DNA from: Mesorhizobium sp. M3A.F.Ca.ET.080.04.2.1 | Lineage (GTDB): Bacteria; Pseudomonadota; Alphaproteobacteria; Rhizobiales; Rhizobiaceae | Direction: 5' to 3' | Length of the DNA stretch: 64,000 bases | Assembly: GCF_003952525.1 (NCBI RefSeq) | Contig: NZ_CP034451.1 | Coordinates: 744,001-808,000, forward strand | In this document: in pieces, positions 17,539-40,291 of the stretch | How the letters are laid out: each line of letters starts with the position of its first letter | How positions within the stretch are numbered: the first letter of the stretch is position 1 | Position numbers and translations under genes: made by a program | Notes under the pieces: generated by a model | What the model was told of the DNA's origin: nothing | Database searches by the model: none | The model's input: only the letters and a program-made list of their open reading frames with translations

Positions 17539-17917
17539 TGCCGGATTTTCCTCGATTGTTGGCCCAGAAGAACCCCTCCCTGGACCGTTGAGACGGGGGA
17601 CGGATGACGCCAAGCGGAATCCGCCCCTTCGCTGGCGTGTATGCGAAACAGGGCTTGGAACGTCAAGATATTGTTCGGTTTTTGCCCTGCTTTCACCGGA
17701 ATGACGGGCGCCACGCCGGGCATCCTGGCGCGGCTTTCAAAATTAGATCGATTGAAATGACGTTGAGTAACCGTTCCGGACGAGATCTTTTGACGATCCT
17801 CCGGCAAGGCATTCCAGCCCACGCCGACGACCTGCCCGCGGACGTTTGCCGGCGTCGATCGGCACCGCCGGAACGACGACAATCAGGCCAGCCGACCCGG
17901 TCGCGGCAGGCGCAACG
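17539..17917. other. Intergenic stretch between hppA and the MFS gene
   Basis: These 379 bases hold the hppA promoter side and the end of the nusB-MFS transcript. No gene, strong hairpin or repeat was seen. Small frames here are Arg-rich and lack family resemblance. Confidence 0.5.
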
Positions 17918-35548: not shown

Positions 35549-35603
35549 CGTCGTTCCCGCTTTCCAGAGCCGCATTGACAGCGGCAAGGTTGAGGTCCAT
35601 GAC

Positions 35604-35635
35604 GGATACCGATTTGGTATCCCAAAATGGTATCC
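35604..35635. promoter_or_regulatory. GntR-type operator array
   Basis: GGATACC (35604-35610) and GGTATCC (35616-35622) form a perfect dyad with a five-base spacer. A third half-site GGTATCC follows at 35629-35635. It lies between the divergent GntR and MFS start codons. Confidence 0.75.
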
Positions 35636-35664
35636 GGAACAACCCCGGTAAGGGCACGCATGAG

Positions 35665-36918
35665 ATGAGGCAGGACGACACGGGCCAAGGCGACTACAAC
35701 GTCCATTGGCGGCGCAATCTCGCCGTCTGCTTCGCCGGTTCGTTCAGCACGCTGATCGCCATGACGCTGCTGCTGCCCTTCCTGCCGCTCTACGTCGAAC
35801 AGCTGGGCGCGCAAGGACATGCGGCAATCGTGCAGTGGTCAGGCATCGCCTATGGCGCGACTTTCTTCGCCGCCGCCCTGGTCGCGCCGCTCTGGGGACG
35901 CCTCGGCGATCGTTACGGCCGTAAGCTGATGCTGGTGCGCGCGAGCTTCGGCATGGCGATCTGCATGTCGCTGACCGGCATGGTGCAGAGCGTCTGGCAA
36001 CTGGTGCTGCTCAGACTGCTGATCGGCTTTGCCGGCGGCTATTCCTCGGGATCGACCATCCTTGTGGCGATGCAGACGCCAAAGCACCGCTCGGGCTGGG
36101 CGCTAGGCGTGCTGTCGGCCGGCATCACCGCAGGCTCGCTGGTCGGTCCGCTGCTCGGCGGGGCGCTGCCGCCGCTCATCGGTATCCGCGCCACCTTCCT
36201 GCTCTCCGGCGCCGTCATCTTCCTGGCTTTCCTGGCCACGACCTTCCTGATCAAGGAGAACCCGCGTCCGCAAGCGGCAAAGGTCGCGACGGTAAAGAAG
36301 GCGCAAAGCGGCTGGTCGCAAATCCCCGACAAGCGACCGGTCGTCGCGATGCTGGCGACGGGCATGCTGCTGGCCTTTGCCACCATGTCGATCGAGCCGA
36401 TCATCACCGTCTATGTGCAGCAACTCGTCGAGAACCAGAACCGGGTGACGATGATCGCCGGCGTGGTGATGGCGGCGGCGGCGCTCGGCACCATCCTGTC
36501 CTCATCAAGGCTGGGCAGGCTTGCCGACCGCGTCGGTCACTGGAACGTGGTTGTCGGCGCGCTCGCCGTATCGGCGCTGCTGCTCATCCCCCAGGCCTTC
36601 GTCACAGACAGCTGGCAGTTGATCGGGCTGCGCTTCCTGATGGGGCTGGCGCTCGGCGGCCTGCTGCCCTGCATCACCAGCGTCATCCGCCACAACATTC
36701 CGGACGGCATCGGCGGCAATGTGCTGGGACTGTCGATCTCGGCGCAATATGTCGGCCAAGTCGCAGGACCGCTTGCCGGCGGGTTTGTCGGCGGTCATTT
36801 CGGCATGCGGGCAGTGTTCCTCGGCACCTCGGCGTTGATGGCGCTGGGAGCAGTCTATAACTGGCTTGTCCAGTCGCGACGGGCGCGGCATATGCTGCTG
36901 GTAGCTCGCGAGTCCTGA
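35665..36918 (+). CDS. MFS drug/solute transporter (MdtG-like)
   Basis: The product has 417 residues from the ATG at 35665 and 12 membrane helices. It has the MFS loop motif GRLGDRYGRKLMLVRASFG and the repeat-half motif SRLGRLADRVGHWN. It resembles multidrug exporters of the MdtG group. In-frame starts at 35575 and 35599 exist, but they would place the operator inside the coding sequence, so 35665 is preferred. Control by the divergent GntR protein is expected. Confidence 0.85.
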   Translation: MRQDDTGQGDYNVHWRRNLAVCFAGSFSTLIAMTLLLPFLPLYVEQLGAQGHAAIVQWSGIAYGATFFAAALVAPLWGRLGDRYGRKLMLVRASFGMAICMSLTGMVQSVWQLVLLRLLIGFAGGYSSGSTILVAMQTPKHRSGWALGVLSAGITAGSLVGPLLGGALPPLIGIRATFLLSGAVIFLAFLATTFLIKENPRPQAAKVATVKKAQSGWSQIPDKRPVVAMLATGMLLAFATMSIEPIITVYVQQLVENQNRVTMIAGVVMAAAALGTILSSSRLGRLADRVGHWNVVVGALAVSALLLIPQAFVTDSWQLIGLRFLMGLALGGLLPCITSVIRHNIPDGIGGNVLGLSISAQYVGQVAGPLAGGFVGGHFGMRAVFLGTSALMALGAVYNWLVQSRRARHMLLVARES

Positions 36919-36951
36919 GGGCTCGCTCACGCGAAACACGGAGCATCCGCC

Positions 36952-37320
36952 ATGAGCCTGCCAGTTCAGTCGTCGAACGGCGGCAACCCCATTCTGGTGC
37001 TGGCGGGCGGAGTTATCGGCGCCGCCGGCGTGGCGCTGTCGGCGCTTGCCGCTCACCGCGGTGGCGCCTTCACCGGCACTGCCGCCTCGTTTTTGCTGAT
37101 GCACGCCCCGGTCTTCCTCGCCATCGGCCTTACGGGCAGCAACCGAGGCCTCAGGATCGCAAGCCTGGTGCTGCTCGCCGGACTGTTGCTGTTCAGCGGC
37201 GACCTGCTTGCCCGTGACTTCCTCGGCTCTCGGCTGTTTCCGATGTCGGCGCCGATCGGTGGCACTTTGCTGATCGCCGGCTGGCTGGCGGTCGCCGTCT
37301 GCGCGCTGTGGCGTCGCTAG
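36952..37320 (+). CDS. DUF423 family membrane protein
   Basis: This 122-residue protein has four transmembrane helices. Its DUF423 features are GAAGVALSALAAH early, LLFSGDLLARDFLG (GDL in the third helix) and APIGGTLLIAGWLAVAVCAL at the end. The function of the family is unknown. It starts 33 bases after the MFS gene and is probably in the same transcript. Confidence 0.87.
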   Translation: MSLPVQSSNGGNPILVLAGGVIGAAGVALSALAAHRGGAFTGTAASFLLMHAPVFLAIGLTGSNRGLRIASLVLLAGLLLFSGDLLARDFLGSRLFPMSAPIGGTLLIAGWLAVAVCALWRR

Positions 37321-37368
37321 ATCTATCGGGCATTCGTCAAGGCGATGCCGGACGCGCGCACGGGCAAT

Positions 37369-37500
37369 TTACCTGCGTTCCGAACGCAGCTTGCGCGTCG
37401 CCGGTTGAACGGCGCGGCGCCGCTCCGGCAGGTCGGACCGGGGCGAGATGCCCCAATAGTTGCGGTAGATGTCCTGGAACAGGTGGCCAATCGGATGCAT
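37369..37500 (-). CDS. Micro-ORF 1: 43-residue protein with MHPxxxLFxDxYxNxWGI motif
   Basis: The ATG at 37500 has a strong ribosome binding site (GGAGG, six bases upstream). The protein starts MHPIGHLFQDIYRNYWGISP and ends in an Arg/Lys-rich tail (QPATRKLRSERR). It has no signal peptide or membrane helix. Its first 18 residues match the protein from micro-ORF 2 at 37702 at ten positions, which supports real coding. A LacI-type operator lies 18 bases upstream. The function is unknown; a small regulatory or nucleic-acid-binding role is conceivable from the basic tail. Confidence 0.7.
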   Translation of the reverse strand: MHPIGHLFQDIYRNYWGISPRSDLPERRRAVQPATRKLRSERR

Positions 37501-37517
37501 GGCTGCCCTCCTTAATG

Positions 37518-37531
37518 TTGAATCGATCCAA
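37518..37531. promoter_or_regulatory. LacI-type operator O1
   Basis: TTGAATCGATCCAA is a near-perfect dyad with a central CG, the hallmark of LacI-family sites. It sits between the stop of micro-ORF 2 and the ribosome binding site of micro-ORF 1. Confidence 0.82.
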
Positions 37532-37558
37532 TTTCTCCGAATAGAAAAGACTGGCTGT

Positions 37559-37702
37559 CTAGCTGCGCTTGCGCCCCACAAGGAAGCGCGGTTCGCGCTT
37601 CCACGGGCTTGCCTTGCCGCGGCGTTTCTCGCTGAACGCAGCCGAAGCGATGCCCCAATCGTTGTGATAAACATCTTCGAACAGATAATTGACCGGATGC
37701 AT
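37559..37702 (-). CDS. Micro-ORF 2: 47-residue paralogue of micro-ORF 1
   Basis: The ATG at 37702 follows GGAG at six bases. The protein begins MHPVNYLFEDVYHNDWGIAS and ends with a basic stretch (KREPRFLVGRKRS). The conserved positions with micro-ORF 1 are M, H, P, L, F, D, Y, N, W, G and I, with Glu/Gln and Val/Ile exchanges, followed by a shared RR. The tandem duplication, strong ribosome binding sites and shared operators argue for genuine genes. No known family is recognised. Confidence 0.7.
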   Translation of the reverse strand: MHPVNYLFEDVYHNDWGIASAAFSEKRRGKASPWKREPRFLVGRKRS

Positions 37703-37743
37703 GGCACTCTCCTTGCCAAAAGCCGCCTGCTGCGGCGGCGAAC

Positions 37744-37757
37744 TTGGATCGATTCAA
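37744..37757. promoter_or_regulatory. LacI-type operator O2
   Basis: TTGGATCGATTCAA is the exact reverse complement of O1 and O3. It lies 41 bases upstream of micro-ORF 2. Confidence 0.82.
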
Positions 37758-37791
37758 CCTTAGACCTCGAGCCCCGAGAGTCAAGCGATAT

Positions 37792-37805
37792 TTGAATCGA
37801 TCCAA
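37792..37805. promoter_or_regulatory. LacI-type operator O3
   Basis: TTGAATCGATCCAA is identical to O1. It lies 70 bases upstream of the LacI gene, 48 bp centre to centre from O2, within the divergent promoter region. Confidence 0.82.
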
Positions 37806-37875
37806 CAAAAATGTTAGAGGACCGGCAACCATTCCACGGTCATGCTTGTCACCTGACCGGATTCGGAGGAACGAC

Positions 37876-38955
37876 ATGGCATCACTCGCCGAAGGCCAGG
37901 GACGACCGATCCGGCTGGCGGACATCGCCAAGGCCGCCGGCGTGTCGCATGGCACGGCCTCCAACGTTTTCAGCCGTCCGGAAATCGTGCGCGCCGAGGT
38001 GCGCGAACGGGTCAAGGCGGTCGCGGAGGCGATGGGGTATGCAGGACCGGACCCGAAAGGCCGCCTGTTGCGCGCCGGCAAGGTCAATGCGATTGGCGTC
38101 GCCACCACCGAGCATCTATCCTATTTCTTTGACGATCCGTTTGCCCGCGTCATGATGGCCGGCATCTCGCAAGCGTGTGACACCACAGGGGCCGGGATTG
38201 CCCTGGTGTCGGCCCGAGATGACGAAAAACTCGCCTGGAACATTCAGAGCGCGCTGGTCGACGGCTTTATCCTGTTCTGTATCGAAGGCGGCCCGCGTCT
38301 CGTCGAGCTGACGCGCGAGCGCAGGTTGCCCTTCGTGGCGCTGGAACTCGGCTTCGATGACGACACCATTTCCATGATCGGCGTCGACAATGTCGCCGGC
38401 GCGCGGCTTGCCGCCCGTCATCTCGCCGAGCTTGGGCATCGCCGCTTCGCCGTGCTGTCGCTGCCTTTCGGCGACGGCCGTGTCGGTCTGGTCGCGCCTG
38501 AGCGTTTCGGGACGGCGATTTACGCCGGATCGCGCAACCGTCTTGCCGGCTATTTCGAGGAACTTTCCCAGTTCGGCATCGATACCGCCAAGGTGCCCGT
38601 CTACGAAACCGAGAACGAGGCGGTCACCACCAGGGCTGGACTCGAAACGATCTTCGCCAACGGCGATCCGCCCACCGCTATCCTGGCGATGTCGGACCGG
38701 ATGGCGATGGTCGCGATCGAGTGGCTGGTCGAGCGTGGCTTGAGCGTTCCCGGCGATGTCTCGGTTATCGGCTTCGACGGCGTACCCGACGGCGTGCTGT
38801 GCTTGCCGCCACTGACGACGATCGCCCAGCCCATCGTCGAGATCGGTCGGCGCGCGGCGCGCATGATCCTGGATTACGATGGAACAGTGCGGCGCGAAAC
38901 GCTCGACCTCGAATTGATCGTCAGATCCTCCACTGGCCCTGCGCCAGAGGCTTGA
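37876..38955 (+). CDS. LacI-family transcriptional regulator
   Basis: The product has 359 residues from the ATG at 37876 after GGAGGA. The N-terminal HTH (RLADIAKAAGVSHGTASNVF, then SRPEIVRAEVRERV) and hinge are canonical. The periplasmic-binding-protein-like sensor follows (AIGVATTEHLSYFFDDPFAR; later SVIGFDGVPDGVLCLPPLTT). Three 14-bp operators lie just upstream, two of them in the divergent promoter and one before micro-ORF 1. It is therefore expected to control itself and the two micro-ORFs. The effector is unknown and no sugar genes adjoin. Confidence 0.92.
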   Translation: MASLAEGQGRPIRLADIAKAAGVSHGTASNVFSRPEIVRAEVRERVKAVAEAMGYAGPDPKGRLLRAGKVNAIGVATTEHLSYFFDDPFARVMMAGISQACDTTGAGIALVSARDDEKLAWNIQSALVDGFILFCIEGGPRLVELTRERRLPFVALELGFDDDTISMIGVDNVAGARLAARHLAELGHRRFAVLSLPFGDGRVGLVAPERFGTAIYAGSRNRLAGYFEELSQFGIDTAKVPVYETENEAVTTRAGLETIFANGDPPTAILAMSDRMAMVAIEWLVERGLSVPGDVSVIGFDGVPDGVLCLPPLTTIAQPIVEIGRRAARMILDYDGTVRRETLDLELIVRSSTGPAPEA

Positions 38956-39046
38956 GCTCGCAAGAGCAGGTGAACGTCGATAGAACCCGGAACTGCTACA
39001 ACACTTCGTTCGACATTAGTCCGGACCGAAGTGTCACGCTCCTTCG

Positions 39047-40291
39047 TCAGTAGGCGCTCGCCGGCACCGATCGCGCGCCGAATGCAGTGCGTTCCGGAGC
39101 TACATTTTCGCGCTCCGGCTTTGCACGAGTGGTGCCCAGGCTGGACAGCCATTCGAGGTAGAAGGCCAGCGCGAATTGCATGGCGATGCCGGCCGATATC
39201 AGGAGGCTGTCATAGACGACCCCGCCCGGATTGATCAGCTTCAGCACCTGAGCCGCCATGGCGATCAGTGTGCCGGCGATGAACACCGGCAGGGAACGCT
39301 TGCCGAGTATGGCCAGCGGATTGTCGGTGCTGGTACGGAACAGGTTCGAGACCGCGGGCAAGGCGACAATCAGGTAGCTGACGGCGAGGATATGCAGCAG
39401 CCGAGGCAGCGACAGAAAGGTCTTGTCGAAGCCGCCGATCACCACCGGCAAGTCGAACCACGTCACCTTGCCCCAGAGCGGGCTATGCACCCAAACCACC
39501 GCCGCCAGCACATACACACCGCATAGGCCGAGCAGCCAGCGGTTGACGGGGATGGATCCGCCGCGCCTGACATGCAGCATGGCGGCGAGGCCGATGTTGA
39601 ACAGGAACTGCCAGGAGAGCGGGTTGAGGAACCAGAAGCCGGGTTCGGGATAGTTCGGCGGCGCGATCTGCCAAACCCCGGCGATGAGCCACAGCAGTCC
39701 GGAAAGCGTCAATGCGAGGACCGGCCGGTAGCTGATCAGCAGCACAAAGGCGGGGGCAGCCAGCAGCAGCGCCGCATAGACCGGCAGGATGTTGTTATAG
39801 CCGAGCTGATGGCCCAGCGTGACGATGCCGACCAGCACTTCCGGCGTGTTCTTCATCAGCGGCTCGATGTTGATCAGCTTCAGCAACTCAGGCCGGTGGG
39901 CGAACACCGCCGCGGCGCAGAACAACGCCATCACCACCATGGTGATGACGATATGGGCGACATAGAGGACCCCCGCACGCCGCCACATCTTCAGGGCCGC
40001 CAGAAGCCTCCCGCCCGGCCTGAACTTGCCGCCATAGGCAAGCGCCACCGATATGCCCGAAATCAGGACGAAAGCCTCGGCCGCGTCGGAGAAGCCAAAA
40101 TTCTTGTAGGTCATGCTTTCGAAGACAGTGCCCGGCACATGATCGATGAAAATCGTGAGCAGGGCGAGCGCGCGCAGCACATCGATACGCGTGTCGCGAT
40201 CGTTGACGCGCGCATGGCGACCGTTGAGACGCGTATCGCGTTCCTGGACACGCTCAGCGCGCTCCGACAAAACTGGCATGGTCATCGACAA
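39047..40291 (-). CDS. opgC: OpgC-like membrane acyltransferase
   Basis: This 414-residue protein has about ten membrane helices. It carries the OpgC pattern RIDVLRALALLTIFIDHVPG, then FGFSDAAEAFVLISGISVAL. OpgC proteins add succinyl groups to osmoregulated periplasmic glucans; the rhizobial targets would be cyclic beta-glucans. The first 35 residues are polar, with ERDTR, GRHAR and DRDTR-like repeats. The gene stands alone. Confidence 0.85.
   Translation of the reverse strand: MSMTMPVLSERAERVQERDTRLNGRHARVNDRDTRIDVLRALALLTIFIDHVPGTVFESMTYKNFGFSDAAEAFVLISGISVALAYGGKFRPGGRLLAALKMWRRAGVLYVAHIVITMVVMALFCAAAVFAHRPELLKLINIEPLMKNTPEVLVGIVTLGHQLGYNNILPVYAALLLAAPAFVLLISYRPVLALTLSGLLWLIAGVWQIAPPNYPEPGFWFLNPLSWQFLFNIGLAAMLHVRRGGSIPVNRWLLGLCGVYVLAAVVWVHSPLWGKVTWFDLPVVIGGFDKTFLSLPRLLHILAVSYLIVALPAVSNLFRTSTDNPLAILGKRSLPVFIAGTLIAMAAQVLKLINPGGVVYDSLLISAGIAMQFALAFYLEWLSSLGTTRAKPERENVAPERTAFGARSVPASAY

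Follow-up and report, generated by a model that had tools for sequence, protein, structure and literature searches.

Layout of the locus

The window, a stretch of 64,000 nucleotides from Mesorhizobium sp. M3A.F.Ca.ET.080.04.2.1, contains two short open reading frames in tandem on its minus strand, micro-ORFs A and B, which are separated by 58 bases. A gene for a LacI-family repressor lies divergent from them. The features of the locus, in window positions, are as follows.

37369-37500, minus strand: micro-ORF B, 43 codons, 43 aa, protein starting MHPIGHLFQDIYRNYWGI; paralogue of A
37507-37511, minus strand: ribosome-binding site GGAGG of B, ending six bases 5' of the ATG
37518-37531, plus strand: operator O3, exact TTGAATCGATCCAA, in the gap between A and B, ahead of B
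37559-37702, minus strand: micro-ORF A, 47 codons, 47 aa, protein starting MHPVNYLFEDVYHNDWGI
37709-37712, minus strand: ribosome-binding site GGAG of A, ending six bases 5' of the ATG
37744-37757, minus strand: operator O2, exact TTGAATCGATCCAA, at the -10 box and 48 bp away from O1
37757-37762, minus strand: putative -10 box TAAGGT, read by eye, weak (3/6 to consensus), spacing of 16 from the -35 box, touching O2
37779-37784, minus strand: -35 box TTGACT of the micro-ORF promoter, at a position where TTGAC is conserved in relatives
37792-37805, plus strand: operator O1, exact TTGAATCGATCCAA, upstream of the micro-ORF -35 box; the LacI start codon follows after ~70 bp
37876-38955, plus strand: LacI-family repressor gene, 359 aa, PF00356 and PF13377, divergent from the micro-ORFs

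The codon counts, the gap, and the distance of the GGAG and GGAGG sites from their start codons were re-read in the sequence, and the values given for them in the initial annotation are accurate. In the relatives displayed, purine-rich sites occupy the same position as the ribosome-binding site of A, and the site of B is variable in sequence yet purine-rich. A gene for an MdtG-like MFS transporter (35575-36918, plus strand) and a DUF423 gene (36952-37320, plus strand) run convergently toward the micro-ORFs; this pair is syntenic in many Mesorhizobium loci and not in the other genera compared.

No same-strand gene follows A and B in the window, the MFS and DUF423 genes being convergent, and no terminator was found in 37150-37950. 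This arrangement bears on whether A and B might be leader peptides that control a downstream gene, as short ORFs near a regulated promoter can be. With no gene downstream on their strand, and with neighbours that differ between genera, we consider a leader function extremely unlikely.

Conservation and coding constraint of A and B

The N-terminal segment of A and B is nearly invariant (M-H-P-x3-L-F-[EQ]-D-x-Y-x-N-x-W-G-I) and is followed by a variable, basic tail. Among the 146 genomes searched in the window's genus, 135 gave an A-like match (E of 0.01 or better). Counted by eye in the table, 122 of these genomes have two matches, which are not necessarily two intact copies, and 13 have one. 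Ten of the 11 genomes with no A-like match are 5.4 Mb or smaller. In the protein collection, A has 32 relatives (E, 5e-21 to 8e-10) and B has 37 matches, one of which is the window's own protein, leaving 36 relatives; the named sources of these relatives are nearly all Mesorhizobium. In genome G102 (locus L071) A has a stop inside its frame, and in G113 (L070) its start is missing, with B intact in both. These two broken copies and the 11 of 146 genomes lacking a match suggest that neither copy is strictly needed.

Coding constraint was measured on 32 loci, the window and 31 relatives, which were mostly best matches and are therefore biased to near relatives; in this sample dN/dS was 0.22 for A (codons 2-47), with 0.096 over codons 2-18 and 0.31 over codons 19-47, and 0.065 for B (codons 2-18). 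Constraint is thus far stronger on the N-terminal segment than on the tail. In the +1 and +2 frames the values were 1.1-2.4. The opposite-strand frames of A gave 1.37, 0.34, and 1.70, of which the 0.34 is taken as a mirror of the coding frame. For the type 2 relatives described below, the pooled dN/dS was 0.13. Conservation of the motif elsewhere and coding constraint were tests set for the micro-ORFs at the outset. A-like proteins do recur, in the 135 genomes of the genus and in other genera and families, and the constraint is present in the frame of A and B and absent in the +1 and +2 frames. By these measures, A and B are real genes.

The same measurements address the possibility that the transcript is chiefly a regulatory or dual-function RNA, with the peptides secondary. 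The transcript would be short and stand-alone, made from a tightly regulated promoter, and the palindromes of O2 and O3 can pair in the RNA (folding z-score, -1.79; 5 of 100 shuffles fold as well). However, that pairing is explained by the DNA palindromes themselves, and the third-position substitution pattern and dN/dS of 0.065-0.22 point to selection on the protein. The type 2 relatives are likewise constrained at the protein level, and the Rfam search of 36500-39200 returned nothing at the gathering score. A primarily RNA-based function appears unlikely.

Scans of A and B against Pfam and NCBIfam gave no match, in agreement with the initial statement that no known family fits the micro-ORFs. 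A search of solved structures with the family profile gave nothing at E of 1, and a search of the plasmid collection with A gave nothing at E of 0.01. AlphaFold returned a single helix at residues 5-27 (mean pLDDT, 55), a low-confidence model that would fit a microprotein lacking a confident fold on its own. Among 145 type 1 proteins (the A/B type), the mean net charge of the tail after residue 18 was +6.1, and the best 17-residue window on the Kyte-Doolittle scale reached 0.49, with no hydrophobic stretch. With its N-terminal segment constrained and its tail basic, the protein looks like a short binding segment carrying a charged tail.

These properties also weigh on the proposal that the repressor holds off a toxic activity of A and B, as small toxins or as membrane peptides. 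That they are small and under the tight control of paired operators would suit this reading. However, the proteins lack the hydrophobic transmembrane segment of type I toxins, no antisense RNA was found with Rfam, the locus is chromosomal with no match in the plasmid collection, and A is spread throughout the genus, which is untypical of toxins. We regard a toxin function as very unlikely.

Operators, the LacI repressor, and spread of the unit

The operator is a 14-bp near-palindrome with a central CG. As first annotated, three exact sites are present, two on the plus strand and one on the minus strand. The accompanying description of sites before each gene holds for the number of sites and not for an allocation of one per gene, as O1 and O2 flank a single promoter and O3 lies in the gap between A and B. 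With up to two mismatches allowed, the window contains 7 operator matches, that is, the three near-palindromes counted on both strands and one weak place at 17743, compared with a mean of 0.45 in shuffles; none of 100 shuffles reached 7.

The position of O1 is conserved among the LacI loci tabulated. Operator pairs were sought at spacings of 44-58 bp, giving 108 distinct inter-operator stretches, many of them from near relatives and so not independent. The distance within the pair was 46-51 in 107 of these and 56 in one, and TTGAC occurred 3-8 bases past the first operator in 98 (4.24 expected from shuffling). The TTGAC feature is also present in type 2 and DUF1127-like loci. Many relatives have a better match to the -10 consensus than the window does, and a strict promoter scan of the window did not report the micro-ORF promoter. 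By position, O1 and O2 bracket the predicted micro-ORF promoter. Many relatives have a third operator, ~33 bp beyond O2 and ~30 bp ahead of the ATG; where the ORF is doubled, the second copy is preceded by an operator as well. Since an operator thus precedes each ORF copy in relatives, O3 would belong to the duplicated unit, as a probable leader operator copied along with the ORF.

The regulator has a LacI-type helix-turn-helix (HTH) domain (PF00356; 40 bits, cut-off of 27) and a periplasmic-binding-protein-like effector domain (PF13377; 108.7 bits, cut-off of 26.5), as expected of the LacI family, and the palindromic central-CG operators lie, judged by sequence, near its own promoter and that of its target. 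One arginine and one aspartate, which we take to be effector contacts in PurR-type regulators, align with columns that do not vary across 20 LacI orthologues, which would fit a sugar-like or nucleobase-like ligand.

The exact operator occurs three times in the 6.17-Mb genome, in each case at this locus. Just two one-mismatch sites lie elsewhere in the genome (C1:3025603-3025616 and C1:6114279-6114292). A looser pattern, applied to 30 genomes picked for having the LacI gene and counting sites that fit that pattern, gave 81 sites, of which 4 among the listed places lay outside the locus; the reversed-pattern control gave 5. The six sites of genomes G428 and G318 are accounted for by three seen at each one's own locus. 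Off-locus sites that could represent further regulon members are no more frequent than in the control, and this LacI protein looks dedicated to its own locus. In Mesorhizobium composti (L208, genome G815) the LacI orthologue is kept, and its divergent slot is without a micro-ORF. This genome, the one seen with LacI yet no micro-ORF, is also without an operator-pattern site, which was counted in favor of a LacI switch.

At the family level, the micro-ORF profile matched 16 of 297 genomes: five from the window's genus, ten from six other genera, and one false match. The false match (L052, genome G199) was rejected as a family member, as it has no motif ORF and no LacI-like HTH. The check for a linked LacI gene set in the initial annotation was positive, with a divergent LacI orthologue and operators at all ten loci from other genera. 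At the order level the profile matched 12 of 397 genomes, nine of them from the window's genus. LacI orthologues (E of 1e-80) were found in 25 of the 297 family genomes and 52 of the 397 order genomes, and elsewhere in the class a LacI relative (E of 1e-70) was found in one genome besides the window's own, among 385. In all these counts only the best candidates of an initial pass were scored in a genome (for the micro-ORF, up to 23 at the family and up to 17 at the order level; for LacI, up to 6, 5, and 5 at the family, order, and class levels), and the absence of a match in a genome is no proof of absence. The slot of this class-level LacI relative (L241, from another order, 43% identity) has no clear family member.

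By pattern, 129 LacI loci, 12 of which are duplicate copies of loci under another name, were divided into 71 with two type 1 ORFs, 18 with one, 23 with type 2, 5 with DUF1127-like ORFs, 11 with none, and 1 in which no HTH was found. Inspection of the 11 revealed family members in L112, L113, L197, and L092, DUF1127-like ORFs in L083 to L086, ORFs of uncertain type in L079 and L091, and no ORF in L208. The L079 slot holds a different 74-aa ORF, with no Pfam match, under conserved operators. Two or more operators were found in 124 of the 128 HTH-bearing loci; among the 80 loci of named genomes, 79 carry two or more and 73 carry three or more. When 19 relatives were compared with the window, the neighbouring genes were syntenic within Mesorhizobium and different in other genera. 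LacI, operators, and small ORF therefore stay together while the neighbours change between genera.

The slot was read at 22 order-level LacI loci (one without a recognisable HTH) and two micro-ORF loci. Outside the window's family, most slots read encode a type 2 protein of 57-70 aa, MIP[AS]SY[LF]F[KR]xxYxxx[FW], which is present, going by source names, in Labrys, Kaistia, and Prosthecomicrobium; four slots read at the order level hold DUF1127-like ORFs. A model built from type 2 alone matched all 145 type 1 proteins at E of 100 or better and 85 at E of 0.01 (best, 8.3e-6). Among its decoys, the one at 0.0037 is the L092 slot ORF, that at 0.062 looks like the L128 protein read from a late start, and the first attributed to chance scores 0.48. 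These decoys had passed a text filter on the motif, which may also have dropped chance ORFs bearing it. In the reverse direction, the type 1 model matched 3 of 17 type 2 proteins at E of 0.01, with a chance decoy at 0.0027. Drawing on one direction of profile search and on the shared slot and operators, we class types 1 and 2 as homologous members of one M-[HI]-P microprotein family.

At L083 to L087 and L130 to L133, LacI and its operators face a DUF1127-like protein instead of an M-[HI]-P microprotein. In a LacI tree of 57 rows, the slot types were strongly clustered (7 changes, compared with 26.8 for shuffled labels), some slot labels having been set by hand after inspection and L092 still being labelled none. 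The DUF1127-like slot holders formed one supported group of 7 (98/94) and an outlier, L132. Of eight slot proteins scanned with PF06568 (L083 to L085, L087, and L130 to L133), two scored above 23.3 bits (24.0 and 25.1), four scored 14.6-18.7 bits, and two had no match; the DUF1127 label is accordingly firm for two and tentative for the others. DUF1127 proteins (PMC12501420) are, like A and B, small and arginine-rich, and along one branch of the LacI tree DUF1127-like proteins fill the slot that is otherwise taken by the microproteins. A and B differ in having no Pfam DUF1127 match, and their profile shows no resemblance to that of the slot DUF1127 proteins (hhalign probability, 0.3%). A DUF1127 origin of A and B, which have no PF06568 match, was rejected. 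The simplest reading would be that one small protein came to replace another as the output of the same repressor.

Proposed switch and its relation to known systems

On this basis we favor, as moderately probable, an inducer-relieved LacI switch whose output is a microprotein, a small adaptor-like regulatory protein. The computations show that A and B are genuine genes under coding constraint, how operators and promoter are laid out, that the sites are confined to the locus, and how far the unit has spread phylogenetically; repression, induction, translation, and the adaptor role and target of A and B we infer. The repressor would bind O1 and O2 around the micro-ORF promoter and hold it off, and LacI is probably autoregulated, since O1 lies ~70 bp ahead of its start codon. 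A small effector, probably sugar-like, would free the operators from the repressor, and derepression would yield a short mRNA encoding A and B. The N-terminal segment may then fold as a helix on a partner, such as a sensor, enzyme, or transporter of metabolism, with the basic tail adding affinity for the partner, nucleic acid, or membrane. Agrobacterium DUF1127 proteins bind the sensor kinase PhoR (PMC12501420), and by analogy a protein-binding role is the leading guess for A and B.

Alternatively, A and B might act on LacI itself, as anti-repressor or co-repressor, in a closed feedback switch. LacI and the small ORF do co-occur, and no other target site is visible. However, LacI is conserved where the slot protein is DUF1127-like and unrelated by profile, as well as in L208 without a slot protein, and a switch that acted on nothing outside itself would be difficult to maintain. 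Such a feedback loop seems improbable. A broader extension of the microprotein-output switch is possible, if doubtful: an ancient, order-wide cassette in which one LacI switch controls interchangeable effectors, M-[HI]-P microproteins in the majority of lineages and DUF1127-like proteins in others, both acting at the same step in response to a sugar-type signal. As equally tentative examples, that step might be RNA turnover or the tuning of a sensor kinase, for instance PhoR.

Sugar operons are the textbook setting of switches built on LacI-family repressors. The local regulators AglR and ThuR of Rhizobiales (PMC4052901) share with the regulator here the LacI family, a palindromic operator with a central CG, a divergent target, and probable autoregulation. 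They control operons of sugar transport and catabolism, whereas here the sole gene under the sites besides lacI is the microprotein pair. PckR, which shares family and order with this regulator, acts globally on central carbon metabolism in Rhizobiales; in most families a genome has 14-28 PckR target genes, and an adjacent target is usually lacking (PMC4052901). Site counts set the two apart, PckR having many targets and this LacI having exact sites at its own locus only. Judged by this locus's own site, the many sites at central carbon genes that mark a PckR regulon were not found.

In enteric bacteria, SgrR is a dedicated regulator adjoining SgrS/SgrT, the gene for a ~43-aa protein of sugar metabolism; SgrR is not known to be a LacI protein. 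SgrS is a base-pairing RNA, whereas region 36500-39200 here has no Rfam match of the kind that would indicate a dual-function RNA. A dedicated regulator paired with a small regulatory protein is a kind of system known in outline, and this particular pairing and protein family appear to be undescribed. No description of a LacI-microprotein system was found in the open-access papers searched. Mesorhizobium does not occur in the main text of PMC4052901, nor LacI in that of PMC10117765, on the small proteome of Sinorhizobium meliloti. The initial suggestion of an undescribed LacI-controlled small-protein system is supported by conservation, constraint, the linked LacI and operators, and the lack of a Pfam or NCBIfam family, and the locus is best described, from these comparisons, as a real, conserved, LacI-linked microprotein module.

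A widely kept LacI protein with a microprotein gene as its sole visible target would add a protein family for which neither Pfam nor NCBIfam has a model. The family is found in most Mesorhizobium genomes examined, where genetics is easy, and the replacement of microprotein by DUF1127-like protein behind unchanged operators gives an independent route to DUF1127 function. The unit points to an overlooked small-protein control module.
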